From Candidatus Auribacterota bacterium (GTDB taxonomy: Bacteria; Auribacterota; JAFGBW01): 11,941 nt of DNA. The position numbers were made by a program, and so were the translations under genes. The notes beneath the pieces are model-generated. The model made no database searches, had not been told where the DNA came from, and saw only the letters and a program-made list of their open reading frames with translations. Positions 1-11,941 of this stretch are shown piece by piece (position 1 is the first letter of the stretch; the number at the start of each line of letters is the position of its first letter). The stretch covers positions 1 to 11,941 of the forward strand of contig JAFGBW010000033.1 in the NCBI GenBank assembly GCA_016932965.1, read 5' to 3'.

Positions 1-971
1 AGGGCTTCCTGACCGGATTCTGGCTGGAGATTGGCAACCACCAGATCATAGGTTCCCAAACCTTCCATGAGATCATTCTTGAAACAACGGACCCTTTGTT
101 CCATGCTCCTGCAAAGAAGACCGGTGTTCACTATGGGCATAGAATTCATATCAACCGAATCAACGACTCCTCCTTTTTCCCCGATAACACAGGCTTCTAC
201 TCCCATACCTGGACACACAAACAAGACCTTCATGCCGGGTTTAAAGTTAATAATGGCTCCCTGTAAGCTCATCCTGTTGGATGAATGCATATTATGAAAA
301 ACGCCGGGAAGTATTGGAAATCTTCTGATTCTATACCTGTCTATAGGTACATGTTGTAATCGTTTGATTAAAGCGGTCGCATTCAAGCGAAAATCAATCG
401 CTCTGCCATCAAAGGTATTAAACGCGGCATACAAGTAGGGATCAAAAACGACTTTTTTTATGCTACGGAATATGGTAGCCCGAACTTGTTCCCAGATCAT
501 GTCAGGGATTACAGAATCAAGCCCGATATAATACCTGGTCAAATCCACCAGATGGATGGGGCCTTCCTGGACTAACATCAGAAAAAAAGGAGTCCTTTGG
601 TAATACACAATCTGAATTTCACCGTCAGGATGAGGATCTGTTTCCAAGGAAAAAGCTGATTTAAGCGCATTGAGATTGAGTTGCCTGACTGGAATTTTTA
701 TCGTGATCAATGGTTCTCCCTGCCGCGGCATCATTGATTCCTCCTGGATTCCCAGTCCACGGAAAAGATGACTGATGATCGAGTATTCCTCCTCATTTAA
801 CTCACATGATCTCCTTAATTCTGAAATAGGAGAAAGAACCGATTCGGCCTGCCCCGTGACAGGTAATGTCAATAGGAAGACTGATAAGCTGATCACGAAA
901 CCATATAAATAAAATCTCAGGCGCCAGGCAATCATCCGGCTCATGAGGATTTCGGCAATGACGCGCAGCAT
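1..971 (-). CDS. Export-leader protein with class I SAM methyltransferase domain (3' end cut by window edge)
   Basis: Reading the minus strand from ATG at 971 gives 323 codons with no stop before the left edge, so the C-terminus is missing. The start has a GGAG Shine-Dalgarno at 981-984, nine bases away. Residues 20-38 form a hydrophobic segment after basic residues, ending TGQA-ES, which reads as a Sec signal peptide or anchor. Residues about 40-240 are unrecognised. From 249 a Rossmann methyltransferase core appears: VLFVCPGMGVEA (SAM glycine loop, motif I), VDSVDMN with acidic D274 ending strand 2, D300 in the motif III position, and YDLVVANLQPE at 308-318 (motif IV, resembling PrmA and N-methyltransferases). 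The substrate is unknown. An export signal ahead of a SAM-dependent enzyme is odd because SAM is cytosolic; the segment could instead be a membrane anchor with the catalytic domain inside. The methyltransferase fold is fairly sure, its location is not. Confidence 0.75.
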   Translation of the reverse strand, partial: MLRVIAEILMSRMIAWRLRFYLYGFVISLSVFLLTLPVTGQAESVLSPISELRRSCELNEEEYSIISHLFRGLGIQEESMMPRQGEPLITIKIPVRQLNLNALKSAFSLETDPHPDGEIQIVYYQRTPFFLMLVQEGPIHLVDLTRYYIGLDSVIPDMIWEQVRATIFRSIKKVVFDPYLYAAFNTFDGRAIDFRLNATALIKRLQHVPIDRYRIRRFPILPGVFHNMHSSNRMSLQGAIINFKPGMKVLFVCPGMGVEACVIGEKGGVVDSVDMNSMPIVNTGLLCRSMEQRVRCFKNDLMEGLGTYDLVVANLQPESGQEA

Positions 972-1156
972 GTAACTTTACTCCATTTATAGTGACTTAC
1001 CATAAATACGACCTATAGACAAGGGATCTGCATGTAATTCACCAGTATCCGGGGAAAGTTTTTACCCATTGCTTTATTCTTAGATTTCATGGCGTGTTTC
1101 AAACTTTTGAGTGTTTTTGATAAGAATGGAGACTCGAAACCTTATATGGCGAAGAA

Positions 1157-1174
1157 GGACAACCGAAGGTTGCC
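1157..1174. other. Short hairpin in the gap downstream of pdxA
   Basis: GG-CAACC pairs with GGTTG-CC around a GAA loop with one bulged A, giving seven pairs. It lies about 83 bases past the pdxA stop. No T-run follows on either strand, so it is a weak candidate for a terminator or RNA 3' end. The rest of the gap at 972-1256 shows only the leader of the methyltransferase gene and the heptamer array at 1216-1250. Confidence 0.3.
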
Positions 1175-1215
1175 AAGAGAACGCTTGTCATGATTGAGTT
1201 TAAACTTCTTCCTTA

Positions 1216-1250
1216 TTTATTCTCGATTCTCACCACTTAATTCTCAATTC
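1216..1250 (-). repeat. Heptamer array, GAATTRA family (5 units)
   Basis: Read on the minus strand this is five consecutive 7-base units in strict phase: GAATTGA, GAATTAA, GTGGTGA, GAATCGA, GAATAAA. The middle unit has diverged but keeps the period. It abuts the 3' end of pdxA. The same unit recurs at 6496-6530 and 7799-7826, and in opposite orientation as a variant at 7902-7929, always between genes. Confidence 0.6.
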
Positions 1251-1256
1251 TATCAA

Positions 1257-2240
1257 TCATCCCCGGTTCCCGGCCATCCGGACAGCCAAATTAATAGCTT
1301 CAACCATGGAAGTTTCTCCGGCGATTCCTTTCCAGGCAATATCATAGGCCGTGCCGTGGTCAGGGGAAGTCCGGATAATGGGAAGTCCCGCAGTGACATT
1401 CACGGCGGAATCAAACGCAGCCAGTTTCAATGGGATGAGCCCCTGATCGTGGTTCATGGCCACAATGAGGGTATTCTCCTTATTCAAAAATTGACGAAAA
1501 AGGGTATCCGGGGGATAGGGGCCTTTTACATTAAACCCTATTTTCCGGGCAGTTTCGACAGCAGGCCTGATGATCCGTTTTTCTTCATCGCCAAAGGCGC
1601 TGTTTTCGCTTGCATGAGGGTTCAATCCGCTGACATGAATGACAGGATTCGGATAACCGAACTGTTTCATGGCCTGGTTTCCGATAAGGATAGTTTCGAC
1701 AATATTTTTCACGGACAAATCTTGGATGGAGGAAACAAGCGATTGATGATGTGTTACTAAAATGACCTTCAGTGCTTTTGAATAAAACATCATCCGGTGA
1801 GAAGGATTGCCGCAAAGGTCCGCAATAAAATCTGTATGCCCCTTGAAATGAAATCCTGCCTTGTGGCAGGCTTGTTTGTTAATCGGAGCGGTCACCAAAC
1901 CATTCAGAAGGCCCTCCCGGCATGCCTCCACCCCCTGTTCAATCCATCGGATCGCAAGGCACCCGGCTACGCGTGAAATTTTACCGGGAGAAAAAGATTT
2001 TAATAGGGTCTTTTCCTCCGATGTCCCGTGAAAAAACCGGCCAAAAAAAGAATGAGGGACTTTTGGTCTGCCGTGCCTGACCAGACGACAGGCTTTTTCA
2101 TAGATATCAGGATGTCCGAGGAGAATATATTCAGCCTTTTTATTGAGTTTGGGGTGATGGAGGGCCTTGATGATCACTTCGGGTCCGATTCCGGAGATGT
2201 CCCCAAAAGTAATCCCGATTTTCGGATTAGAAATCTTCAT
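1257..2240 (-). CDS. pdxA: 4-hydroxythreonine-4-phosphate dehydrogenase PdxA
   Basis: PdxA oxidises 4-phosphohydroxy-L-threonine with NAD(P)+ in the DXP-dependent route to pyridoxal phosphate; it is a cytosolic metal-dependent dimer. The protein has 327 residues, the usual family length. Signatures visible in order are GDISGIGPE (13-21), VTAPINK (116-122), GHTDFIA (134-140), VTHHQSL (162-168), LNPHASE (206-212) and NHDQGLIPLK (263-272). H164, H209 and H264 sit where the family has its three metal-binding histidines. The first motif normally reads GDPxGIGPE, so isoleucine replaces proline, a modest variation. ATG at 2240 lies 14 bases inside the upstream SurA-like gene in another frame and has no strong ribosome site, which suggests translational coupling. 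No other pyridoxal synthesis gene is in the window. PdxA2-type paralogues exist, but nothing here points to that role. Confidence 0.95.
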   Translation of the reverse strand: MKISNPKIGITFGDISGIGPEVIIKALHHPKLNKKAEYILLGHPDIYEKACRLVRHGRPKVPHSFFGRFFHGTSEEKTLLKSFSPGKISRVAGCLAIRWIEQGVEACREGLLNGLVTAPINKQACHKAGFHFKGHTDFIADLCGNPSHRMMFYSKALKVILVTHHQSLVSSIQDLSVKNIVETILIGNQAMKQFGYPNPVIHVSGLNPHASENSAFGDEEKRIIRPAVETARKIGFNVKGPYPPDTLFRQFLNKENTLIVAMNHDQGLIPLKLAAFDSAVNVTAGLPIIRTSPDHGTAYDIAWKGIAGETSMVEAINLAVRMAGNRG

Positions 2241-3243
2241 TTACTTGAATAAAGGCTTTTTGACGAAGCCGGTCTATCCATTCCTTCCGGATCCGGTCCG
2301 CCTGCTGGATGTACAATTTATTGCTGATCGTATCCCAGACCTCTTTAATGGGTACCACATCGGCTTTCTGAATGGATTCCACCTTTAAAATGTGAAAACT
2401 GGAGGAGGTCTCTATGATGGTACTGACTTCTCCCGGTTTCAAGGTCCACAGAACCTGGTCGATTTCCGGCATGAACTGTCCCTTTTTCACGTCATTCCAC
2501 AAGCCGCCATCTTTGGCATGCGGATCTTCGGAATGTTCTATAGCCAAGGCCTTGAAATCCTTGCCGTTTTTGATCTCTTCTGCGATGGATTCAATGAGAG
2601 CTTTCTTGGCCCCTGTGTTTTTCTCATCGGCTTCCTTCTTGATCCAAATCTGGGAAAACGTGATCATGGCCGGTACTTTGAATTCTTCCTCATGAGAGTG
2701 ATAATATTGTTCAATATCAGAATTACTCACGTAAACCTTGGAGGATACCTCTTTGGAAACAAGGTGTTTCACAAGCAGCTGATCCGTGCAATCCTTTTTA
2801 AAATCCTCAAAAGAAAGATTTTCCTTTTCCAAGGCATCCTCAAAGACTTCCCGTGATGGAAATTTAGCGATGATTCTTTCTATATGCTGCAGGATTTCTT
2901 TTTCAGGAACCTGTAATTCCTTACCCTGCATTTCAACGGCTGTCTGCAAAATGAGTTTATTCTCTATCAACTGCTCCAGGATTTCCTTTTTTATCTCCTC
3001 GATTTTTGTATTGAGTTCCGGACCGGAATACTCGCTTTTAAGCTGTTTAATGAGAGGGAAAAGAGAACGGATCAAATCCGTTTGGGTGATCACATCATTA
3101 TTGACGACGGCAACCACTCCGTCTATGGTGAACCGCCGTTTTGAAGAAGCGGATTCATTTTCGGAAAATCCGGGGACAAGGCTCAATAATAAGCATCCCA
3201 GAGCGGCTCCCATAATAAAATACGCTATTTTCTGTTTTCTCAT
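2227..3243 (-). CDS. SurA-like periplasmic peptidyl-prolyl isomerase / chaperone
   Basis: Predicted exported folding factor for outer-membrane or periplasmic proteins. With ATG at 3243 it has 338 residues. Residues 3-25 are a signal peptide (basic MRKQK, hydrophobic core, then VPGFSENES). DGVVAVVNNDVIT at 41-53 is the classic start of a SurA N-domain, followed by helical segments to about 190. One parvulin (PpiC) domain runs from about 193 to 290, with HSEDPHAKDGGLW, FMPEIDQVLW, LKPGEVS and FHILKVE. SurA of E. coli has two parvulin domains; this has one, as is common outside Proteobacteria. An in-frame TTG at 3261 would add six residues, but the promoter at 3269-3297 puts the transcript start near 3262, and TTGGAA then serves as leader with a GGAA ribosome site, so ATG is preferred. 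The gene overlaps pdxA by 14 bases; surA-pdxA adjacency is also known in enterobacteria. Confidence 0.92.
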   Translation of the reverse strand: MRKQKIAYFIMGAALGCLLLSLVPGFSENESASSKRRFTIDGVVAVVNNDVITQTDLIRSLFPLIKQLKSEYSGPELNTKIEEIKKEILEQLIENKLILQTAVEMQGKELQVPEKEILQHIERIIAKFPSREVFEDALEKENLSFEDFKKDCTDQLLVKHLVSKEVSSKVYVSNSDIEQYYHSHEEEFKVPAMITFSQIWIKKEADEKNTGAKKALIESIAEEIKNGKDFKALAIEHSEDPHAKDGGLWNDVKKGQFMPEIDQVLWTLKPGEVSTIIETSSSFHILKVESIQKADVVPIKEVWDTISNKLYIQQADRIRKEWIDRLRQKAFIQVNEDF

Positions 3244-3268
3244 GGCATCAGTTATTTCCAAAGAACGG

Positions 3269-3297
3269 AATCTAATAAAAGGCCATTTTCATGGCAA
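3269..3297 (-). promoter_or_regulatory. Predicted sigma-70-type promoter of the surA-like/pdxA operon
   Basis: On the minus strand TTGCCA (3297-3292, five of six to consensus) and TAGATT (3274-3269, four of six) are separated by exactly 17 bases. The predicted start point near 3262 leaves a leader of about 19 bases before ATG 3243. Confidence 0.5.
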
Positions 3298-3322
3298 GAG
3301 GTTTTCTGCTTGTTTTTTTTTC

Positions 3323-3351
3323 TTGCATTCTGTTTTCTGAATTTATTTAGT
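3323..3351 (+). promoter_or_regulatory. Possible promoter of nnr
   Basis: TTGCAT (3323-3328) and TTTAGT (3346-3351) are 17 bases apart in a T-rich stretch, upstream of the ATG at 3393. The -10 box is weak (four of six), and AT-rich sequence gives such matches by chance. Confidence 0.3.
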
Positions 3352-3380
3352 TTATTAACTGAGTGGCCGTTATTATATCC

Positions 3381-3384
3381 GGAG
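3381..3384 (+). promoter_or_regulatory. Ribosome binding site deciding the nnr start
   Basis: GGAG eight bases before ATG 3393. It supports that ATG over the in-frame GTG at 3363, which lies upstream of this site and has no comparable one. Confidence 0.75.
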
Positions 3385-3392
3385 ATCAAACC

Positions 3393-4970
3393 ATGTCGGA
3401 AATCAAAATCCTATCCGTGGAGGAAAGCCAGGAACTGGACCGTAAAACGATCCAGGGTCATCATGTCAGGGGACAGGAGCTCATGAAAAGAGCAGGGGAA
3501 CTCGTTGCCTCTCATGTGGCGGACATCTGCATCAAAAAAAAATTTTCAAAAGAAATCCTCATTCTTTGCGGCAAGGGAAACAACGGCGGCGATGCCTATG
3601 TCGCGGCTTACAACTTGTACGAAAAAGGATTTGTCCCGCGTGTTATTCTGACCTGTCCCTCTTCTGAAATCACACGCGATGCGGGCATTCATTACGAAAA
3701 AATGTTCGCCCTTCCAATCGATATCAGGGAAATCAAAGAACCCTCCCAGTTCGGGGAGATCCTGCTCTCATTTACCGGAAATATTCTGATAGACGGGCTT
3801 TTAGGAACCGGTTTTAAACCTCCCATAAAGGAATTTTATGGAGCCCTCATTGACCTGGTGAACGAACAAAAACTCTTTGTCGTTTCCATTGACATCCCCT
3901 CAGGCATGCACGGCAATGAAGAATTACAGGACCATGATAAAGCCATCCGGGCAGACAAAACACTCACTATCGGAAGCGTGAAACCATCCCTTCTCAAAAG
4001 AAAAAATATCAATCATTGCGGACAGATCATGGCACTCGACATCGGATTCCCCCCTTCTCTGATCCAGTCTTTTCATTCGCCTTTTTCCGTCTTCACCCTC
4101 CATGATTTAAAAGCGGCCCTGCCCAAAAGAAAACGAAACAGTCACAAGGGTGATTTCGGCCATGTGCTGATCATTGGCGGAGAAAAAGATTTCTTGGGAG
4201 CTCTTGTCCTTGCCGGTCTTGGATCCGTGAAAAGCGGAGCAGGACTCGTGACATTGTGTCCCTTGCAGAAGGAAAGCTGCGCCTTTCTCCATGTCAAACT
4301 GACGGAAGCCATGACCCTGGATCCGTCGGTCCTGTTGAATACTTCAGCCAAAGTAATAGACGGCATTCTGCAAAAATTTGATGCGATTGGAATCGGCCCG
4401 GGATTGGGGACCTCAGAAGAGGCTTTGCAGCTTCTGAAAATCATATTGAGAACAGGACTCCTTTCTCCGGTTGTATTGGATGCGGATGCCTTGAACCTTC
4501 TTGCCGGCAAAAAAATTGAACCGGAAAAAAACAATAAAAGACCTCTCATCATGACTCCCCATCCCGGGGAAGCGGCTCGTCTGCTTTCAACAAACGTGGA
4601 TGAGATCGAAAACGACCGCATGTCCTCTATCCTCAAATTGAATAAGCAATGGAATGCCACCATCGTCTTAAAAGGCTCTCACACGCTGGTATCGGATTCC
4701 GCTTTTTGTCATCTGCATCTGACCGGAACCCCTGCGATGGCTTCAGGAGGCATGGGAGATGTTTTGACCGGCCAGATTGCGGGCTATCTGGCTCAGGGAT
4801 TCTCACCGGTTCAATCCTGTGACCTGGGCGTGGCGTTAGCCGGCCTGAGCGCACAGGATCTGGAAGATCAATACGGCCCTTTTGGCTTCACAGCGACCCA
4901 GATGGCTGAAAATATACCTAGCACGGCAAAAAATCTGGAGAAAATCGAGAAGAAATCTTATTGGATTTAA
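3393..4970 (+). CDS. nnr: Bifunctional NAD(P)H-hydrate epimerase / ADP-dependent NAD(P)H-hydrate dehydratase
   Basis: Repairs damaged nicotinamide cofactors. The N-terminal half (YjeF_N/NnrE) epimerises R- and S-NAD(P)HX, and the C-terminal half (carbohydrate-kinase fold, NnrD) dehydrates S-NAD(P)HX using ADP. From ATG 3393 it has 525 residues, typical for the fused form. NnrE signatures are GKGNNGGDAYVAA (60-72; most homologues have GDG), DGLLGTGF (134-141) and SIDIPSGMHG (165-174). NnrD signatures are HKGDFGHVLIIGG (251-263), SVKSGAGLVTL (278-288), GIGPGLGT (333-340), VLDADALNLLA (361-371), MTPHPGE (387-393), VLKGSHTLVS (425-434) and SGGMGDVLTG (451-460), the last carrying the catalytic aspartate region. 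It diverges from the surA-like operon, and its TAA stop at 4968-4970 touches the convergent gene's stop with no gap. An in-frame GTG at 3363 would add ten residues without a ribosome site. Confidence 0.95.
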   Translation: MSEIKILSVEESQELDRKTIQGHHVRGQELMKRAGELVASHVADICIKKKFSKEILILCGKGNNGGDAYVAAYNLYEKGFVPRVILTCPSSEITRDAGIHYEKMFALPIDIREIKEPSQFGEILLSFTGNILIDGLLGTGFKPPIKEFYGALIDLVNEQKLFVVSIDIPSGMHGNEELQDHDKAIRADKTLTIGSVKPSLLKRKNINHCGQIMALDIGFPPSLIQSFHSPFSVFTLHDLKAALPKRKRNSHKGDFGHVLIIGGEKDFLGALVLAGLGSVKSGAGLVTLCPLQKESCAFLHVKLTEAMTLDPSVLLNTSAKVIDGILQKFDAIGIGPGLGTSEEALQLLKIILRTGLLSPVVLDADALNLLAGKKIEPEKNNKRPLIMTPHPGEAARLLSTNVDEIENDRMSSILKLNKQWNATIVLKGSHTLVSDSAFCHLHLTGTPAMASGGMGDVLTGQIAGYLAQGFSPVQSCDLGVALAGLSAQDLEDQYGPFGFTATQMAENIPSTAKNLEKIEKKSYWI

Positions 4971-6404
4971 TCAACCGCTAGCAAGAAATACTTCCTCGGC
5001 TCTAAAAATGAGTATTCCGTTCAATTCCTTGGCTTCCGCAATGGCTTTTCTGAAATCGGACATGATTTCTTGAGCAAGCATAGTCAGACTTTCCCCCTGC
5101 AACACTCTGCCGTTTAATCTGAACCTGAATTCCATCGCAATGGAATTACCGCTTCCTATGTATTTGTCCGGGTGTGCCCTGGTTAAACATTCCCTCATCC
5201 TGATCAAATCATAACGATTTTCATCACCGTTGTATCTGATGTTGACCCTGATCACGGCGAAACCCTGATAGGTCCCATAACTGATGATGATAACAGAACG
5301 CTTATCAGCCAAAGGCCTCCCGTTGGAAATCTCCACTGCGCAAGAAGCGTGGATCATTTCACTGAGAAGATTGACCTGATCCCCTTTCCAAGTGAAAAGA
5401 TACTCCTGCTGCGGCACAAAGACTCCGATCACATGTTCATCCGACTGGGACTGGACTGAAGAGGCTATTTGTCCAATTTTCTGCCGGCATCCTTCATACT
5501 TTTCATATAATGTATCAAGTTCTTGTACGGTTCTGGCATTCATGACACGCACCAAAACATCGCTTCCTATTTCACATAAATATCTCACCTTGGAAGTCAT
5601 GAGGGGATCCCCCACCCTGAATACGTAGTCATGCTCATCCATTGGAAATAAAAAATCGCCTTTAACGCCCACATCCACCCATAATCCAACAGGAATGGGT
5701 AAATTCAGCGATTCTAGTCCCTTGTCAGGCCCCTTCTTAACTTTCAGGATATAATCACTGAGGATGGCTGTGAGTATCACGCAAGGAAAATAACGCGACT
5801 TGGCTTTTATCCCCATCTGCTTCAAATTAACAAGGCACTGGTTTGATTCAGCATAGATCTCCTCTGATTTAGCCAGCACATGATGATCAACCGCCATATT
5901 GATCCCACTGATCATTTGTGACCAGTATAAATCCAAAGCCACGACCGCATCGATATCATCCATGATCCACGGCCCGTAGTTAGAGGCTAGCCTCGGCTCA
6001 TATACGGCTATAAGTGTGATGCCTGCAGGGACCGGATAAGCGTTCAAAAAGGCCTGAAAAATCTTTGCAGAACCTACTCCGTCCGCATCATTATGAAACA
6101 AAATCCTGAATGTGACTTGGGACCGGCGTTCTCTGATGGCTTTTTCTATGAGACTATCCATATAACGGATGTATGCTTGAGCGATGTCATTAATCGCCTG
6201 TGAATCAATAGTGGGGGGGAAAGGCAGATTACGGTTCAATCGTGAAAAAATAATGCCATTGCTTTCCAAGATTTCTGAAGGAGTGCTCTTATTGACAGAA
6301 ATCGGGGCAAGGGGAAAAACAGGTGTGGCGCCTGTAAGCAGAATAACAACGCTTAGAACCAGAATGAGCTTGGAATTCGAAAGAGATAATGCTTGGTATT
6401 TCAT
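4971..6404 (-). CDS. DHH-family phosphoesterase with an export signal
   Basis: 477 residues. DHH proteins are Mn-dependent phosphodiesterases or exonucleases acting on nucleic acids, short oligonucleotides or cyclic dinucleotides. Motifs seen: FHNDADGVGS (103-112, motif I with H104, D106, D108), VALD with D158 (motif II), VDHH (172-175, motif III) and DVGVKGD (244-250, motif IV region). KYIGSGNSIAMEFRFR (414-429) sits where the glycine-rich substrate loop of a DHHA1 domain is expected, although the usual GGH is replaced by GSGN. The catalytic set looks intact. Unusually, residues 10-32 are a hydrophobic leader ending PVFPLAPIS, a typical Sec signal peptide or anchor, which would place the enzyme in the periplasm or on the membrane; characterised DHH exonucleases are cytosolic. 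ATG 6404 has no Shine-Dalgarno and sits at the predicted transcription start. Substrate unknown. Confidence 0.85.
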   Translation of the reverse strand: MKYQALSLSNSKLILVLSVVILLTGATPVFPLAPISVNKSTPSEILESNGIIFSRLNRNLPFPPTIDSQAINDIAQAYIRYMDSLIEKAIRERRSQVTFRILFHNDADGVGSAKIFQAFLNAYPVPAGITLIAVYEPRLASNYGPWIMDDIDAVVALDLYWSQMISGINMAVDHHVLAKSEEIYAESNQCLVNLKQMGIKAKSRYFPCVILTAILSDYILKVKKGPDKGLESLNLPIPVGLWVDVGVKGDFLFPMDEHDYVFRVGDPLMTSKVRYLCEIGSDVLVRVMNARTVQELDTLYEKYEGCRQKIGQIASSVQSQSDEHVIGVFVPQQEYLFTWKGDQVNLLSEMIHASCAVEISNGRPLADKRSVIIISYGTYQGFAVIRVNIRYNGDENRYDLIRMRECLTRAHPDKYIGSGNSIAMEFRFRLNGRVLQGESLTMLAQEIMSDFRKAIAEAKELNGILIFRAEEVFLASG

Positions 6405-6410
6405 ATTGTT

Positions 6411-6439
6411 TTAATACTGCTAAATCGATAATTTGTCAA
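6411..6439 (-). promoter_or_regulatory. Strong promoter candidate for the DHH gene, possibly leaderless
   Basis: On the minus strand a perfect TTGACA (6439-6434) is followed, after exactly 17 bases, by TATTAA (6416-6411). Only six bases separate the -10 box from ATG 6404, so the transcript would begin at or next to the A of the start codon. No ribosome binding site precedes this ATG, which agrees with a leaderless message. Confidence 0.6.
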
Positions 6440-6462
6440 GTCATCAATATGAAATAAAAAAT

Positions 6463-6488
6463 TTCACCGCAAGGGCACACGAAGAGGA
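6463..6488. repeat. Intergenic A/G-rich repeat of the cacgaag type
   Basis: Contains CACCGCAAGG followed by GCACACGAAGAGG. Similar wording, inverted, occurs at 11463-11486. It resembles dispersed CGCAAAG/CACGAAG intergenic repeats that I recall from other environmental genomes. No open frame covers it. Confidence 0.35.
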
Positions 6489-6495
6489 GTAAAAA

Positions 6496-6530
6496 AAATT
6501 AAGAATTAAGACTTTTGAATTAGCAATTAA
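6496..6530 (+). repeat. Heptamer array, GAATTRA family (5 units)
   Basis: Five 7-base units in phase: AAATTAA, GAATTAA, GACTTTT, GAATTAG, CAATTAA. It lies in the 252-base gap between the lpxK stop and the DHH start. The remaining bases, 6531-6656, show nothing I can name. Confidence 0.55.
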
Positions 6531-6656
6531 GATGACTCCTTCAGAGGATAAAACGATAACTGCCGACCATCAACCATGCTGAATACACAATTTTTCTTAA
6601 TTTTCCTCCGTGGCAAACTATTTTTTTCTTCCGGATCATCTCATGAATACGGGGGA

Positions 6657-7760
6657 TTATCCTCGGTTCTGAATCTGATTTTTTACTTCATGGATCCATT
6701 CATCAGGAAGAAAAAGCTCCATTTCTATCACGTAGCAGGGAACGTTAAAAATCCTGCCTTTCAGCCTGACTGCATCCTTTTCAGTGGTGATGATTCCATT
6801 GACCCCTTCTTTTTGTATCCACTCCTGTATTTTGAAAAATAATCTGTCATCGTAGGGTATATGATCCGGTAAATCCTGATGAGGCCCTTGGATCCCCACC
6901 ATCTCAAGTGTTTTTGAAAAAGATTCCGGGTTGCCGATGGAAGAGAGTATTCCCAATTTTTCTTTTTCCAGGCGGTTTATATCCACCACATGAAGCGGAT
7001 CATTCAACAAATAGGCTCCAAGGATGTCATAATTAAAAAAATAGATCTGCTTTGATTTCTCCTGCCCCACAATGGCTTTGACCTGATTCTCGATTCTAAG
7101 CCTGGGCTTACCCTTGGGAAAAACAAAATGCGTTCCCTTTGCCAGAAAGGAAATGGGCTCTCTAAGGGGCCCCCTCGGTAAAAGATATCCGTTACCAAAA
7201 GGCCGCCGGCTATCCAAGCATAGGATATCCATGCATTTAGCAAACTGCCTTTGCTGGAAAGCGTCATCTAAAATAATGAATTCACAACCGCAATCCTTTT
7301 CCAGCCTTTCGATCGCTTTGATACGGTCAGAACAGACCATGATCCTGGCCTGGGGACATAATTCCGAAAGCAGCCTCGCTTCATCTCCTATGAGATCCAA
7401 TTCCAATCCGGGTCGTGTGACATCGGCGTCAACCAAAACCGGAGTTCTGAGAACCTTTCTCCGGCCATAGCCCCTCAATACGATTCCAACGGGCAACGAA
7501 GTTTTGGTCTGGAGATAAAGCGCCATCCAGGCCACTAAAGGAGTTTTTCCTGTTCCTCCTACTGTCAAATTACCGATGGAAATCAGCTGCGCGCGAAAAA
7601 CAATTTTAGGTTTTAAAGAGGCCTGGATATCCCGGTACTTCACGATTTTCTCATACAAAAGGGCGAGCCAGGTCAGAATCTGTAAAATCCATTTTCCTCT
7701 TCCCAGGTTATACGGAAGCTCCCAGACAGAATGAATCCATTTATATAAATAGGAATACAC
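6657..7760 (-). CDS. lpxK: Tetraacyldisaccharide 4'-kinase LpxK
   Basis: Phosphorylates the 4'-position of the tetraacyl-disaccharide 1-phosphate lipid A precursor with ATP at the inner face of the cytoplasmic membrane, giving lipid IVA. The protein has 367 residues, slightly above the usual length. Residues about 10-40 form the hydrophobic, amphipathic membrane-binding region. GNLTVGGTGKTP (63-74) is the Walker A loop, then LRGYGR (95-100), IGDEARLL (124-131; D126 matches the catalytic aspartate), IILDDAFQQR (162-171), PRGPLREP (195-202), LPDH (297-300; H300 fits the catalytic histidine partner) and TTEKDAVRL (325-333). The DDxxQ element normally reads DDGLQH; here it is DDAFQQ, keeping both aspartates and the glutamine. 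The start is GTG at 7760, backed by AAGGAG eight bases upstream. No other raetz-pathway gene is in the window. Presence implies an LPS-type outer membrane. Confidence 0.95.
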   Translation of the reverse strand: MYSYLYKWIHSVWELPYNLGRGKWILQILTWLALLYEKIVKYRDIQASLKPKIVFRAQLISIGNLTVGGTGKTPLVAWMALYLQTKTSLPVGIVLRGYGRRKVLRTPVLVDADVTRPGLELDLIGDEARLLSELCPQARIMVCSDRIKAIERLEKDCGCEFIILDDAFQQRQFAKCMDILCLDSRRPFGNGYLLPRGPLREPISFLAKGTHFVFPKGKPRLRIENQVKAIVGQEKSKQIYFFNYDILGAYLLNDPLHVVDINRLEKEKLGILSSIGNPESFSKTLEMVGIQGPHQDLPDHIPYDDRLFFKIQEWIQKEGVNGIITTEKDAVRLKGRIFNVPCYVIEMELFLPDEWIHEVKNQIQNRG

Positions 7761-7768
7761 GCTATGCT

Positions 7769-7774
7769 CTCCTT
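7769..7774 (-). promoter_or_regulatory. Ribosome binding site fixing the lpxK GTG start
   Basis: On the minus strand AAGGAG ends eight bases before GTG 7760, a near-perfect Shine-Dalgarno with ideal spacing. No in-frame ATG lies near it. Confidence 0.8.
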
Positions 7775-7798
7775 AACAATCGGTGTATATTATGATTA

Positions 7799-7826
7799 AA
7801 ATTAAGAATTGAGAATTGAGAATTAA
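7799..7826 (+). repeat. Heptamer array, GAATTRA family (4 units)
   Basis: The cleanest copy: AAATTAA, then GAATTGA twice, then GAATTAA, all in phase. It lies in the 218-base gap between the kinase stop and the lpxK start, about 25 bases upstream of the lpxK ribosome site. Confidence 0.65.
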
Positions 7827-7867
7827 TCCTATAAAGAGCAGCAAATAATACCATGAATAACTTGAAC

Positions 7868-7896
7868 GGATAAGTCTTGTCAGATAGAGGCTATCC
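7868..7896 (+). other. Potential hairpin between the two heptamer arrays
   Basis: GGATA and GTCT pair with AGGC and TATCC around a ten-base loop, with one bulged A and one G-U pair on the plus strand. On the minus strand, which carries lpxK, the wobble becomes a mismatch. Function unknown. Confidence 0.25.
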
Positions 7897-7901
7897 TTTC
7901 C

Positions 7902-7929
7902 TAATTCTTCATTCTCCATTCTTCATTCC
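7902..7929 (-). repeat. Heptamer array, GAATGRA variant, opposite orientation (4 units)
   Basis: On the minus strand the units read around GAATGAA, GAATGGA, GAATGAA, GAATTAG in 7-base phase. It mirrors the array at 7799-7826 across about 75 bases, so the pair forms an imperfect inverted repeat (about five of seven positions per unit). Confidence 0.5.
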
Positions 7930-7933
7930 TCTT

Positions 7934-7962
7934 GGATCAGATTTCGACAATTCGAAAAATCC
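7934..7962. other. Imperfect inverted repeat just downstream of the kinase gene
   Basis: Inner stem TTTCGA/TCGAAA closes a four-base loop, and outer GGAT/ATCC can pair across a small internal loop. It begins about 16 bases past the kinase stop. It could be a weak 3'-end structure, but no T-run follows on the minus strand. Confidence 0.3.
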
Positions 7963-7978
7963 ATAATAAATACCGTCA

Positions 7979-9244
7979 TCATTCAACTAATCTATTTTCA
8001 TTCAGCATGCCTTCTGCCTTTTCGGCATAAGGAGTCCGGGAATAATCAGAAATGATTTTCTGAAGCAAAGGCTCAGCTAGATCATAACGTCTTATCAGCA
8101 TATAATTCTTAGCTTTGTCAAAATCTCTTTTTGCATGAGAATCCATCCGGTAGGAATCAAGCATCTTGACCTTCAAAACGGCTAATCCAAATAAAAACAA
8201 AAGTCCCGTCATAACCATGACCGCCGTATTTTTTAAAACCGACCTTCTTTTTCTTAATGAATAGACATCCTTTCTTTTCATGCCGCGGGCATGGTAGGAG
8301 GACACTCTTTGGTAAGCATGGGTTTGTTTTTTTTGGATCACTTTTTCCACATCCTCCAGACACTCGTTCATCGAAGCATACCGGTCCTCCTTCTTCTTTT
8401 CCATCATGATAAACACCATGCTGTCTATGTCCGGGGAGATTTCAGGATTAATACTGGAAGGGGCAGGAGGAATCCGGTGGTGTATGGCGTCAAAAAGGCG
8501 TGTTGAAGAAGTATCGGGGAAAGGGCGTTCCAGCGTCAATAATTCGTACAGGATGACTCCCAGGGAAAAAATGTCCGTCCTGGGATCCAAATCCTTTCCA
8601 AGAGTTTGTTCAGGAGACATGTACGCGGGAGTTCCGGCAACCATTTTCGCCGTATTACCCGTTGGAAAACGATAAAAACTGGCCAGACCAAAATCCATCA
8701 CTCGGCAGTTCTTTTTCTGATCCATCATGACGTTGGCTGTTTTGACATCGCGGTGTATGATGTTCTTTTCATGAGCGTAGGCCAGAGCAGAACCGACCTG
8801 CTGTAAAATTTTTAAGGACTCTTCCAGTGAAAAAAAAGGCCGTCTTCTTTTCTTATCCTTTCTTTTTACCTCCAGCATTTTTTCCAGCGTGATTCCTTCG
8901 CATAAATCCATGACGAAAAAATAATGGCCTTTATCTTCGGCGAAAAGATGAATGGAAACAATATGCGGATGCTGGAGTTTGGCCGCCATCTTGGCCTCAT
9001 CTTTAAGCTGCTGAATATGAAAAGGGCTGTATTCATTGCTGGGCAGCATTTTCAAAGCCACATAACGGTCTAATGAGGCCTGATAAGCCTTGTAAACGAT
9101 GCCCATTCCTCCTGTTCCCAGCACATCGGTGATACGGTAATCCAAAAAAATCTCGCCAAGGAGGTGAGAAGCAGCGAGGACATCTGACCTCGTTTTGGTG
9201 TAATAAGGTTCTGTATTATGTGAGGAAACGTCATTCATTGGCAT
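7979..9244 (-). CDS. Transmembrane Ser/Thr protein kinase with TPR-like C-terminal tail
   Basis: A 421-residue Hanks-type (PknB-like) kinase. The kinase domain spans about 36-305: glycine loop GTGGMGIVYKA (43-53), ATP lysine K65 in VALK, E83, HRDVKTAN (164-171; catalytic D166, with K168 and N171), DFG (184-186), GTPAYMSPE (204-212) and D224. All catalytic residues are present, so it should be active. A basic stretch precedes one hydrophobic helix at about 340-358, predicted to anchor the protein with the kinase inside. The last 60 residues (FDKAKNYMLIRRYDLAEPLL, then YAEKAEGML) look like a TPR or BamD/YbgF-type repeat and would be periplasmic. ATG 9244 follows the PqqD-like stop by three bases, so the two are co-transcribed; a second ATG at 9238 is possible. 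Targets are unknown; the HAD phosphatase in the same operon is a plausible functional partner by position only. Confidence 0.93.
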   Translation of the reverse strand: MPMNDVSSHNTEPYYTKTRSDVLAASHLLGEIFLDYRITDVLGTGGMGIVYKAYQASLDRYVALKMLPSNEYSPFHIQQLKDEAKMAAKLQHPHIVSIHLFAEDKGHYFFVMDLCEGITLEKMLEVKRKDKKRRRPFFSLEESLKILQQVGSALAYAHEKNIIHRDVKTANVMMDQKKNCRVMDFGLASFYRFPTGNTAKMVAGTPAYMSPEQTLGKDLDPRTDIFSLGVILYELLTLERPFPDTSSTRLFDAIHHRIPPAPSSINPEISPDIDSMVFIMMEKKKEDRYASMNECLEDVEKVIQKKQTHAYQRVSSYHARGMKRKDVYSLRKRRSVLKNTAVMVMTGLLFLFGLAVLKVKMLDSYRMDSHAKRDFDKAKNYMLIRRYDLAEPLLQKIISDYSRTPYAEKAEGMLNENRLVE

Positions 9245-9247
9245 GAT

Positions 9248-9511
9248 TCAATCACCCGAGATAAAACCCTGTTCCGTGAGGGCGGAAATAAAAGCCCGGA
9301 GATCCGAGCGCAAATCCTCCTCCTCCACTTCATACTTGTTTTTCATTTGAGCTAAGATGGAGTCCGGCGATTCGCCTATCGAAAGAAGCTTCCATATGAG
9401 GATTCCGCTTTCATTCAGCCAGAATGTCAATAATGTCTCAGGATCAAAGAGAATCGCTTCACCCTTTTCTTCCTGAAGAACGGCTTTTTTATTCACTTTC
9501 ATCCATGTCAT
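9248..9511 (-). CDS. PqqD-family (RiPP recognition element-like) small protein
   Basis: 87 residues matching the PqqD/RRE winged-helix pattern: EKGEAILFDPETLLTFWLN (15-33), then the signature ESGILIWKLL (34-43), a helix with SILAQMKNKYEVEEEDLRSD, and a closing ALTEQGFI. PqqD proteins bind leader peptides and hand them to modifying enzymes, but many stand-alone homologues in non-RiPP contexts have no known role. No radical SAM enzyme, cyclase, protease or obvious precursor peptide lies in this window, so a RiPP role is not supported by the neighbours. It sits between the HAD gene (16-base gap) and the kinase gene (three-base gap), all minus, as the middle gene of an apparent operon. The start could be ATG 9511 or ATG 9502; neither has a good ribosome site. 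Confidence 0.82.
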   Translation of the reverse strand: MTWMKVNKKAVLQEEKGEAILFDPETLLTFWLNESGILIWKLLSIGESPDSILAQMKNKYEVEEEDLRSDLRAFISALTEQGFISGD

Positions 9512-9527
9512 GGCTCATTAAACAGGT

Positions 9528-10355
9528 TTACGCCAGGATGTTCCTTAAACAGGATTTGATCGCATCCCTCACTTGTCCTTTAAGGCTATAATCGGATTCT
9601 GCAATACAGATAACCCGCTCATCCGTCAACAGCGATTTCGCGATGGTATATTTTGCCTGATCGAACACCGCAATGCCATAACCGCCAAATTTTTTCAACA
9701 AAGCAAAAGACGGGATATCGGAAAATCCATCCCCTACAAAAATCATGCGGGAAAACGGGATTTCATATTCCCTTGTGTTAAGGCGTTGATTGACTTGAGA
9801 TGGATCATGAAAATAATCCTGTTCGTGCTTGATTCCTTTAGAAATGGAAAATAAGAAACGGGTTTTGTCCGTAAAATTAACTGTTCTTTTGGGATAAAGA
9901 ATCCTTCCATTTTTAGGATCATGATAAAAGGCTGAGGAAAAAATGCCGCAAAACTCATGCGCTATGACCGTGGATTTCAAAATCCCGTCTATTCCTCCTG
10001 AAACCAGATAATACTGGATCTCAACATGAGGATTGAATTCTTTCACATCGTGTTTGAGGTCCCTGAAAAGGGTCTTCACCCCCTGGTAAAATCGAATGGT
10101 TCTGGCATAGGATTTGAAGCGGCTTAAAGTAAACAACGGGGCAAAGTGTTTTGTTTTTGACATCCGAATCATCAGATTCATGTAAGCTAGAACCGGGTCA
10201 AATCCTTCCTGAATGAGTTCGTGTGCTGTATTCCAAAACCCGATCGTGTCCACTCCGCACCATGTTAAAAATCCGTTGGTTGAGTCAGGACAAAGGGTGT
10301 CGTCAAAATCGAACACCAAAGCCAGTTTTTCTTTTCTTGGGGCAGGAACTCTCAT
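9528..10355 (-). CDS. HAD-superfamily phosphatase (phosphoserine phosphatase-like)
   Basis: 275 residues. HAD motif I is FDFDDTL (15-21; nucleophile D16, acid/base D18), motif II is LVSGG (117-121; S119), motif III lysine is K164 in FTDKTRF, and motif IV is FVGDGFSDIP (206-215; D209, D213). All four motifs are intact, so a Mg-dependent phosphohydrolase is expected in the cytosol. The large helical cap between motifs I and II (about 25-110) places it with phosphoserine phosphatase-like HADs; I recall uncharacterised homologues of similar length and wording (PDSTNGFL, FYQGV, YPKR) in varied bacteria, with no substrate assigned. It is the first gene of the HAD-PqqD-kinase operon. ATG 10355 has only a weak purine-rich leader. 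Dephosphorylation of the kinase's targets is possible, but HADs of this group usually act on small molecules. Confidence 0.9.
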   Translation of the reverse strand: MRVPAPRKEKLALVFDFDDTLCPDSTNGFLTWCGVDTIGFWNTAHELIQEGFDPVLAYMNLMIRMSKTKHFAPLFTLSRFKSYARTIRFYQGVKTLFRDLKHDVKEFNPHVEIQYYLVSGGIDGILKSTVIAHEFCGIFSSAFYHDPKNGRILYPKRTVNFTDKTRFLFSISKGIKHEQDYFHDPSQVNQRLNTREYEIPFSRMIFVGDGFSDIPSFALLKKFGGYGIAVFDQAKYTIAKSLLTDERVICIAESDYSLKGQVRDAIKSCLRNILA

Positions 10356-10381
10356 TTCTCTATTGATCAGAACTCAATCCC

Positions 10382-10407
10382 CCCTCTTCTCAATTCATGA
10401 AGGAGGG
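10382..10407. other. Imperfect hairpin in the HAD 5' leader region
   Basis: CCCTC-TTC pairs with GAA-GGAGGG (one bulge) around a nine-base loop. It lies 27 bases upstream of the HAD ATG, so on the minus strand it could sit in the operon's untranslated leader. No T-run follows, so it is not a convincing terminator. No known riboswitch pattern was recognised. Confidence 0.3.
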
Positions 10408-10523
10408 TTTGGGGAAAGAATTGATCTCATTATGGCAAAGATATTCAGCTCAGAACAGTTCATTTTTCGCGCCTCTTTGTTCATAAAAAAAATCATGACC
10501 GAATTACTGGAACAGCTCTTGCA

Positions 10524-10529
10524 TATAAT
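10524..10529 (+). promoter_or_regulatory. Candidate -10 box for the PilZ gene
   Basis: A perfect TATAAT 23 bases before ATG 10553. A TG lies two bases upstream of it, close to but not exactly an extended -10. No good -35 is present at the usual distance. Confidence 0.4.
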
Positions 10530-10552
10530 AGAACCAAGTCGAATTACTCATC

Positions 10553-11404
10553 ATGAAAGCGTTTTTTATGACCGATTCTAGAAGCCATAGGCGTTGTTAT
10601 TTACAACAATATGCAAGAGGGGGGATTTTGCATCGGGGATGGACCGAGTTTACTCCCAGGCTCAACTTTAAACCCGTCATCAAAGACATCAGTTTTGGCG
10701 GAATGGGACTGATTCTTTTTTCTCCAATTGGTCAACAGAGTCTTGAATTGCTGCAAAACGGAAAAAGCAATCTATTTATTGAATTCAATTTACCCCCCTC
10801 CCTGAAAACGATGGGAATCACGGGAAAAGTAAAATGGGTGAAGAAGAAAAATTATCTGCAAACCCCTTTCACAACATTGGGGATTGAATTCATCAATAAA
10901 ACTCAGGAACTGTACCGGGAAATCGATAAATTCTTCAAAATAGCCACCACCCAATCCGAATTGAATCCAAACCGCCGTTTCTTTCCCCGTATTCCTGTCC
11001 AGTTAAGAACCGACTACACGATTGACGGGATCCTCAATTGGGGTTTATTTCCCAAGGTATTTCGAGCTGATGTGCTCAATCTGTCCGCATTGGGCATTTC
11101 GATTAAAACCATCACCCCCCTGAAAGAAAAAGAGCTAAAATGGTTGATAAAGCGCCCACAGCAAATCAAGCTGAAATTTTTCGTGGATTATCTCAACCGT
11201 TTTGTCCATACAAACGCAAGAGCCATCTATTTCAATCCCGGTTCTCTCTCTCAATCGGTTATATTGGGAATGAAATTCATCAATCTGCCGGAACGCGATC
11301 AGAGCATGCTGGTGGAATATCTCAGCCTCAAACGGCATCTTTTCATTAAAGAGGATATTTCTTTTATAGAAAATACCCCGACCCTGCAGACTATCTCTGC
11401 CTGA
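10553..11404 (+). CDS. Tandem PilZ-domain protein (predicted c-di-GMP receptor)
   Basis: 283 residues, soluble, no signal peptide or membrane helix. Two PilZ-like barrels are visible. The first has RSHRR (R10-xxx-R14) and DISFGG (45-50, the D/NxSxxG motif), then GKVKWV (91-96) and LGIEFI (109-114). The second has RFFPR (R142-xxx-R146) and NLSALG (176-181), then ARAIYF (222-227) and ILGMKFI (237-243). Each half thus keeps both parts of the c-di-GMP-binding signature, so two ligand sites per chain are predicted. PilZ proteins pass c-di-GMP signals to motility, polysaccharide or adhesion machinery; no such target is in the window. The gene diverges from the HAD operon, has a TATAAT upstream and an intrinsic terminator 114 bases downstream. 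An alternative ATG at 10568 would drop five residues; neither start has a clear ribosome site. Confidence 0.85.
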   Translation: MKAFFMTDSRSHRRCYLQQYARGGILHRGWTEFTPRLNFKPVIKDISFGGMGLILFSPIGQQSLELLQNGKSNLFIEFNLPPSLKTMGITGKVKWVKKKNYLQTPFTTLGIEFINKTQELYREIDKFFKIATTQSELNPNRRFFPRIPVQLRTDYTIDGILNWGLFPKVFRADVLNLSALGISIKTITPLKEKELKWLIKRPQQIKLKFFVDYLNRFVHTNARAIYFNPGSLSQSVILGMKFINLPERDQSMLVEYLSLKRHLFIKEDISFIENTPTLQTISA

Positions 11405-11462
11405 CAAAAGTCAACTGATACTTCCGCACTCAATCAAAGATGGATCGATCTGGATCATTTTT

Positions 11463-11486
11463 TTCGTGTCTTCTTTGTGTTTCATT
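11463..11486. repeat. Second copy of the cacgaag-type intergenic repeat
   Basis: Read on the minus strand it is ATGAAACACAAAG followed by AAGACACGAA, similar in wording to 6463-6488. Between 11405 and 11510 nothing else is recognisable. Confidence 0.3.
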
Positions 11487-11517
11487 GATAAAAATACCCA
11501 CCATACAAAACTGATTC

Positions 11518-11537
11518 AGCGCAAGGCGCTTTTTTTT
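11518..11537 (+). terminator. Intrinsic terminator after the PilZ gene
   Basis: AGCGC-AAG-GCGCT forms a perfect five-pair GC-rich stem with a three-base loop, directly followed by seven T (eight counting the stem base). Orientation suits the plus-strand PilZ transcript. It ends 36 bases before the lipoprotein ATG, which therefore needs its own promoter or read-through. Confidence 0.75.
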
Positions 11538-11573
11538 ATAAAAGCCCCTGTTTCAGATTAAAGGAATAAAATA

Positions 11574-11744
11574 ATGATAAAGAAATACTCCATCATTTTT
11601 TCGCTGATGGCGGTCATGATGCTCCTTCTTGCAGGATGCCGCACCTTAAAGCCGCCAACAGATGAGAATACCCAGCCCTGGGCACAACCGGAAAAATGGC
11701 AGGGAAGCCCGTCCATTCCTGGGCTGACTCAAAACCAGGATTAA
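11574..11744 (+). CDS. Small predicted lipoprotein (56 aa)
   Basis: A short gene starting at ATG 11574 with an AAGGA ribosome site at 11561-11565, eight bases away, and ending with TAA at 11742-11744. Residues 1-21 form a signal peptide (MIKKYS, then hydrophobic SLMAVMMLLLAG) with lipobox LAGC, cysteine at 22, so lipid attachment to Cys22 is expected. The mature part is only 35 residues, rich in proline, glutamine and tryptophan (PWAQPEKWQGSPSIPG), with no hydrophobic core for a fold. R23 follows the cysteine rather than aspartate, so under the E. coli rule it would go to the outer membrane; that rule may not hold here. The last four bases overlap the convergent SDR gene. Function unknown. 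Good lipobox plus good ribosome site make it a likely real gene despite its size. Confidence 0.8.
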   Translation: MIKKYSIIFSLMAVMMLLLAGCRTLKPPTDENTQPWAQPEKWQGSPSIPGLTQNQD

Positions 11745-11941
11745 GACTCACCCGTCCAGATTCTGCTGTCAAAATTCCATACCTGGCCGGAAATATGATT
11801 CTGATTTGCCAGATAATAAATGGTTTCTGCCGCCTGTTCAGGCCGGCTGAGATGTTTGAAACAACTGTTTTCTATCACTTCCTCTCTGAAACGGGCTGAA
11901 TTGGCCTGCGTCAGAGGGGAATCCATGTATCCGGGAAATAC
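11741..11941 (-). CDS. Short-chain dehydrogenase/reductase, C-terminal fragment (5' end outside window)
   Basis: The open frame runs from the right edge to TAA at 11743-11741, giving 66 residues of the C-terminus. PGYMDSPLT matches the PG-[YFW]-x-x-[TS] segment after the SDR active site. HLSRPEQAAETIYYLANQNHISGQV follows, split here for length as HLSRPEQAAE and ISGQVWNFD, and corresponds to the usual R-x-PE-[ED]-[VA]-A plus ITGQ-x-x-x-x-DGG ending of FabG-like enzymes. The final DGG is changed to DSR. The catalytic Ser, Tyr and Lys and the NAD(P)-binding glycine loop lie outside the window, so substrate and activity cannot be judged. An internal ATG at 11926 is not the start; coding continues upstream in the same frame. 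Convergent with the lipoprotein gene, sharing a TTAA stop overlap. Confidence 0.82.
   Translation of the reverse strand, partial: VFPGYMDSPLTQANSARFREEVIENSCFKHLSRPEQAAETIYYLANQNHISGQVWNFDSRIWTGES

Follow-up and report, generated by a model that had tools for sequence, protein, structure and literature searches.

The known DHH-DHHA1 phosphodiesterases of cyclic di-AMP (c-di-AMP), GdpP among them, either are soluble or sit in the membrane with the domain on the cytoplasmic side. Exported proteins can be marked by a short conserved tag, as with the lipobox, LPXTG, PEP-CTERM and the C-terminal domain (CTD) of the type IX secretion system (T9SS). In the PEXEL, RxLR and powdery mildew Y/F/WxC systems, unrelated lineage-restricted proteins carry a signal peptide and then a very short motif; the powdery mildew effector candidates, for instance, are recognised by such a motif behind the signal peptide and are otherwise unrelated (PMC2886064). 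Here, we analyzed an 11,941-nucleotide stretch of a Candidatus Auribacterota genome (the window; assembly GCA_016932965.1, contig JAFGBW010000033.1, positions 1 to 11,941) that encodes P0001, a protein of 477 amino acids (aa). Its sequence supports an export leader followed by a catalytic core of the DHH type. P0001 is probably a Sec-exported enzyme belonging to a lineage-specific class of tagged, cytosol-type enzymes, whose destination we infer below. Like the systems above, this class combines an export leader with a short conserved tag.

The open reading frame (ORF) previously predicted at 4971-6404 was found there, on the minus strand and with a length of 477 aa. The features of the gene are as follows.

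4971 to 6404, minus strand: coding sequence of the tagged DHH-type protein P0001 (477 aa), stop codon included
6434 to 6439, minus strand: -35-like hexamer TTGACA, from the sequence, with a 17-nt spacer to TATTAA
6411 to 6416, minus strand: -10-like hexamer TATTAA, separated from the ATG by 6 nt
6309 to 6404, minus strand: export leader, residues 1-32, with K2, K12 and hydrophobic residues 13-23; supported by the coding-frame test
6297 to 6311, minus strand: post-leader tag LAPIS, residues 32-36, from the L[AS]Px[ST] enrichment
6078 to 6095, minus strand: DHH motif I, HNDADG, residues 104-109, from profile matches and motif inspection
5931 to 5942, minus strand: DHH motif II, VALD, with D158, from motif inspection
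5880 to 5888, minus strand: DHH motif III, residues 173-175, from a Pfam match and motif inspection
5652 to 5663, minus strand: candidate motif IV, KGDF, with D250 (alternatively D244 in VDVG), from position only
5127 to 5156, minus strand: GSGNSIAMEF, residues 417-426, resembling the GGGHxxAAG substrate loop of DHHA1 with His replaced by Asn, by eye
4974 to 4985, minus strand: LASG-stop, the small-residue C-terminus common to the class, from the [SAG][AGS] enrichment

The class was characterized in a sample of 660 kb, extended to 848 kb, of the source genome (G000), which represents ~27% of that genome. The motif L[AS]Px[ST] was present in 23/178 windows following a leader, compared with 1/1,320 windows taken from the bodies of the same proteins, and in 2/349 N-termini without a leader. 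When the residues of each window were shuffled, it occurred 0.74 times on average and at most 5 times in 2,000 trials, against the 23 observed. When gapped three-residue patterns were counted without bias, the same motif ranked first (L-x-P-x-S 21, LAP 19); across 50 shuffles, the highest count for any pattern was 13. P0001 belongs to this set, as its leader is followed within 35 aa by LAPIS (residues 32-36). Both the N- and C-terminal tags are encoded by different codons in different genes, which places the conservation in the protein rather than in a copied DNA element. Two of the matches, the BtuF-like IISLAPATTEILFA (L091) and the DctP-like FASLAPEG (L100), look by eye like known families and probably match by chance.

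Outside the source genome, none of 171 leader proteins from the phylum's other genomes, G017 of the same order included (G000 and G001 excluded), had the motif, and it was found in 1/193 leader proteins from 80 named control loci of other phyla. PdxA matches of 38-51% identity, mostly from Nitrospirota and Deltaproteobacteria, served as controls only. A second genome of the phylum, G001, encodes a tagged protein of 1,436 aa (LAPPS; last residues ADRAA) with DHH-like, GDPD and NAD epimerase regions, a neighbouring protein with LAPKF and an APH-type phosphotransferase domain, and one further match.

The tagged proteins also share their last residues. With tagged ORFs picked by their N-terminus alone, 21/28 ended in [SAG][AGS] (mostly -SA, -AA or -SG), as opposed to 31/562 other ORFs (p=7e-19); this rule was framed after some class proteins had been seen, and the p value is descriptive, the effect size being the point. 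P0001 ends in ...VFLASG. Cysteine accounts for 0.86% of the residues in tagged bodies, 0.81% in other leader proteins and 1.57% in cytosolic ORFs. Lysine is depleted, at 5.1% of tagged bodies versus 8.6% in exported proteins and 7.75% in cytosolic ones, and 29/31 tagged ORFs were lower than cytosolic ORFs matched for GC content at third codon positions (7.78%; p=5e-9). The body of P0001 has 4.8% lysine. Arginine is raised in the tagged ORFs of G000 alongside this depletion, which the tagged G001 protein (10.2% lysine) does not share.

About two dozen unrelated cytosol-type enzymes carry these short tags in the sampled genome. Pfam searches of the tagged set returned uridine kinase (PRK) with CYTH, P-loop kinase-like, NDK-like, radical SAM, isochorismatase, amidohydrolase, Asp/Glu racemase, PrmA-like methyltransferase, GNAT and AAA_5 domains, although some matches are weak and roughly one in two tagged proteins gave none. 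The radical SAM protein was labelled RlmN-like by eye, from its CPQKCRYC site and MGEP motif. It is an extra copy, ~30% identical to an RlmN-like protein without a leader on contig C169, and its matches to other genomes start after the leader region. By eye, catalytic residues look intact in the isochorismatase, the racemase, the kinase and the RlmN-like protein. A set of 20 untagged leader proteins consisted of OEP, TPR, Band 7, FadL, porin, PDZ, CsgG, TonB receptor, secretin and TolB proteins, glycosidases, HEAT or ankyrin repeats, or proteins with no match; none of the 20 was a cofactor-dependent cytosolic enzyme.

These compositions bear on a rival explanation, in which P0001 would be a periplasmic or surface scavenger with an ordinary signal peptide, degrading extracellular nucleic acids or dinucleotides for nutrition or signalling, and LAPIS would be only an envelope anchor or sorting signal. 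The original prediction likewise proposed a periplasmic or surface DHH enzyme that breaks down DNA, nanoRNA or cyclic dinucleotides. Its leader and catalytic core held up, and the role is possible, but it leaves unexplained why the same tags occur on enzymes dependent on ATP, S-adenosylmethionine (SAM) or acetyl-CoA; delivery into another compartment with ATP suits the class better. The scavenger explanation agrees with the presence of a leader, with a cysteine content like that of exported proteins and with the secreted glycosidases and secretin of the same genome; besides the cofactor-dependent enzymes, it fails to account for lysine at 5.1% rather than the 8.6% of ordinary exported proteins. 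CpdB, the dinucleotide phosphodiesterase known to act outside the cytoplasm, belongs to the metallophosphoesterases and has no DHH domain (PMC4905662). We consider simple periplasmic scavenging unlikely and do not favour it.

Judged by Sec criteria, the n-region and h-region of the P0001 leader are clear and the cleavage site is ambiguous. In hydrophobicity, the h-region (residues 13-23, KLILVLSVVILLTGA) exceeds 98% of the sample's untagged single leaders. A leader had been predicted at residues 10-32 with PVFPLA as its end; the leader is there, but the sequence runs T27-P-V-F-P-L-A33-P-I-S36, which places the end of PVFPLA at residue 33, and the hallmark after the leader is L32-A-P-I-S36 rather than a clean signal-peptidase site. 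No lipobox cysteine follows the h-region, the first cysteine of P0001 being residue 190. The leader is independently supported by the tag and small C-terminus common to the class and by the scarcity of cysteine in its members. Export itself is supported, rather than proven, by the leader, the order of charges and the exported-like cysteine content of the class.

The leader could also be an uncleaved anchor, or could target a membrane-bounded internal compartment in which the enzymes work. The unclean signal-peptidase site of P0001 would fit such an arrangement, as would cofactor-dependent enzymes in a compartment that contains ATP. Against it, the motif lies directly after plausible cleavage sites in several members (LSPRS after CFA, LAPGS after AWG), and the low cysteine content speaks for an oxidising route. 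An envelope-anchored or internal class seems to us quite unlikely.

The translation start was considered as well. The arrangement TTGACA-17-TATTAA-6-ATG abuts the first ATG, and a leaderless mRNA is predicted from it; the generic promoter scanner applied here did not list TATTAA, as its rule calls for a T in the sixth place of the -10 hexamer. A -10 element abutting the ATG was found in 8/31 tagged genes versus 18/555 others (p=2e-5). Codons 1-46 are coding in frame, with a log-likelihood ratio of +2.0 versus -10.0 and -8.9 for the two alternative frames. The promoter abutting the first ATG and this coding score argue against P0001 being a cytosolic housekeeping DHH enzyme that replaces NrnA and whose leader is a start-site artefact, and so does the fit of LAPIS and ASG-stop with the tagged class. 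TTG46 and TTG56 are possible starts, and in the genome RecJ was found, whereas a DHH protein of canonical NrnA size was not; even so, we find this explanation highly improbable.

The DHH motifs predicted for P0001, namely H104-N-D106-A-D108-G, D158, D173-H-H175 and G249-D250, are all at these residues. A DxDG motif followed after 45-85 residues by [DN]HH occurred in 43/2,255 ORFs (at least 150 aa, all fetched loci), and those other than P0001 and its overlapping copies were RecJ/DHH-sized, a few being apparently truncated at contig ends. Because this spacing is confined to P0001 and RecJ/DHH-sized proteins, we do not regard it as a chance pattern. The Pfam DHH profile matched residues 101-193 with E=0.038 (14.7 bits versus a gathering score of 28.1), and the NCBIfam archaeal RecJ profile matched residues 91-201 with E=0.007 (15.3 bits versus a cut-off of 360). 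As both scores are below their cut-offs, DHH membership rests on the order and spacing of motifs I-III (DxD, D, DHH), which are those of the superfamily, and no score exceeded a curated family cut-off. We thus regard P0001 as DHH-type and as presumably acting like a DHH enzyme, without filing it as a confirmed member of the superfamily.

In the C-terminal half, strands and helices alternate in the low-confidence predicted secondary structure, and the loop at residues 417-426, GSGNSIAMEF, lacks the His of GGGHxxAAG. In a PF02272 search of the genome, the only matches were RecJ and one other protein, which we take to be AlaRS; P0001 was not reported. HHalign of P0001 with RecJ and NrnA of the phylum aligned motif I alone. 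It could be argued that P0001 is an orphan tagged protein with coincidental motifs, given the sub-threshold profile scores and an AlphaFold model with a predicted local distance difference test (pLDDT) score of 37. This seems very unlikely, as two profile libraries matched the same region, the motif spacing was found only in DHH-sized proteins among the 2,255 ORFs, and the GSGNSIA loop stands at the position expected for DHHA1. Acetyl-CoA carboxylase folds matched by the P0001 model had TM-scores of ~0.2 and were disregarded.

P0001 is an orphan protein. No homologue was detected by tblastn in 84,980 species genomes (one each) or in viral, phage and plasmid collections, and P0001 showed no detectable overall similarity to any solved DHH protein. 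Among its nearest counterparts are the DHH/DHHA1 phosphoesterases with an HNDxDG motif I, namely PggH and the HNDxDG oligonucleotide phosphodiesterases. Like these enzymes, P0001 has HNDADG, D158 and DHH in order, and it has the same two-domain size once the leader is removed; it differs by GSGN in place of the GGGH-like DHHA1 loop and by its leader and tags. Another genome of the phylum encodes P0002 (329 aa), which has an HNDxDG motif I in common with P0001 and matches the solved PggH structure (PDB 7d62) with E=2e-16; its similarity to P0001 extends over at most 16 residues. The catalytic motifs and two-domain layout of P0001 are also those of GdpP and the soluble DHH-DHHA1 c-di-AMP phosphodiesterases.

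The DHH proteins found in the source genome were RecJ (contig C205) and P0001 only; none of canonical NrnA size was found. With an assembly just 92.6% complete, the absence of NrnA carries little weight. At least two DHH matches were obtained in nearly every other genome of the phylum. A 3,200-codon open frame on contig C98 (L044, approximately 1715-10000, minus strand) has membrane segments, an internal ABC-type ATPase and a weak DHH match; it was rejected as a relative of P0001, since the HH falls within the part that forms the ABC ATPase.

Tagged genes are clustered in the source genome, with six on contig C2 and six to nine on contig C37, depending on the rule. A second one lies in the window itself; its 323-aa fragment had no Pfam match. 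Tagged loci other than P0001 include the following.

3 to 971 of the window, minus strand: second tagged gene, cut by the window end, with a leader, LSPIS (residues 46-50) and a body that is class I methyltransferase-like by eye
L052 (G000:C2), 1583-12084: six tagged genes, encoding NDK-like, P-loop kinase-like, RlmN-like radical SAM, isochorismatase, unknown 848-aa and uridine kinase-CYTH proteins
L087 (G000:C37), 980-15778: six or more clustered tagged genes, among them those for GNAT, PrmA-like methyltransferase and amidohydrolase proteins
L079, 1171-9768, and L066, 8166-16508: giant tagged proteins of ~2,800 aa with an AAA_5 ATPase, one of them also with WD40 repeats
L154 (G001:C36), 284-7259: two neighbouring leader and LAP proteins of G001

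The most economical account is that the genome exports a class of cytosol-type enzymes, P0001 among them, by means of a Sec leader and two short sorting marks. The sequences show the leader, the tags, the class and its compositional signature, whereas Sec export, catalysis, substrate and destination are inferred. Taken as an exported member of this class, P0001 would be made from its own, probably leaderless, transcript and would cross the inner membrane through Sec by means of its N-terminal leader. L[AS]Px[ST] and the small-residue C-terminus may then mark it for a further step of sorting, processing or secretion. P0001 would be a DHH-DHHA1-type, presumably Mn2+-dependent phosphoesterase, and at its destination it may cleave short nucleotides such as nanoRNA, pGpG, pAp or cyclic dinucleotides. 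That destination would be outside the cytoplasm of the producer, most likely another cell or a compartment containing ATP and more plausibly so than the periplasm, because members of the class need ATP, SAM or acetyl-CoA and the catalytic residues inspected are kept.

Several points weigh against the tagged-class reading. Neither tblastn nor pattern searches found a P0001 homologue in 44 genomes of the phylum, two of them from the same order, and the class itself comes from a single genome, apart from two or three proteins of G001. The DHH-family profiles both scored under their curated cut-offs; AlphaFold without an alignment gave a pLDDT of 37 for the full protein and 37 for residues 95-301, and a PDB fold search with the full-length model (pLDDT 37) returned no DHH match. 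The signal-peptidase site, T-G-A26 or P-L-A33, is not clean. Neither a secretion machinery nor a partner cell was identified, and no ATP/ADP translocase was found in a search that had no positive control and is uninformative on this point.

A more specific form of the tagged-class reading is an effector-like arsenal, in which many unrelated, catalytically intact cytosol-type enzymes, P0001 among them, are exported by Sec with a bipartite tag and delivered into the cytoplasm of another cell. We put this forward tentatively, as possible but rather unlikely. In such an arsenal, lysine depletion might help the enzymes to evade ubiquitin-like tagging, or modification of their lysines, in the recipient. 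Predatory or parasitic lifestyles have been proposed for Omnitrophota (PMC10066038), which is only a lead here.

The tagged class differs from PEXEL, RxLR and Y/F/WxC proteins in being bacterial, in its motif L[AS]Px[ST], in the additional small C-terminus and in consisting of recognisable enzymes with no known host. As for the bacterial tags (lipobox, LPXTG, PEP-CTERM and T9SS CTD), inspection of the P0001 sequence revealed no lipobox Cys, no C-terminal hydrophobic segment and no long CTD; its tag sits behind an N-terminal leader and is accompanied by a two-residue C-terminal preference. A limited search found no literature on the L[AS]Px[ST] tag, although such literature may exist.

A leader and tags on cytosol-type enzymes suggest that functional enzymes leave the cell by a route not yet described. 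Should the class prove real, a simple rule (a leader, then L[AS]Px[ST], with small residues at the C-terminus) would predict a whole set of exported enzymes in an uncultured lineage, and an undescribed sorting route would become testable. It would also be, to our knowledge, the first case of DHH phosphoesterase, rRNA-methylase-like and kinase-like enzymes routinely leaving the cytoplasm of their producer. The arsenal, if true, would parallel PEXEL/RxLR targeting in bacteria, and a real class would bear on predatory or symbiotic lifestyles in poorly known phyla.
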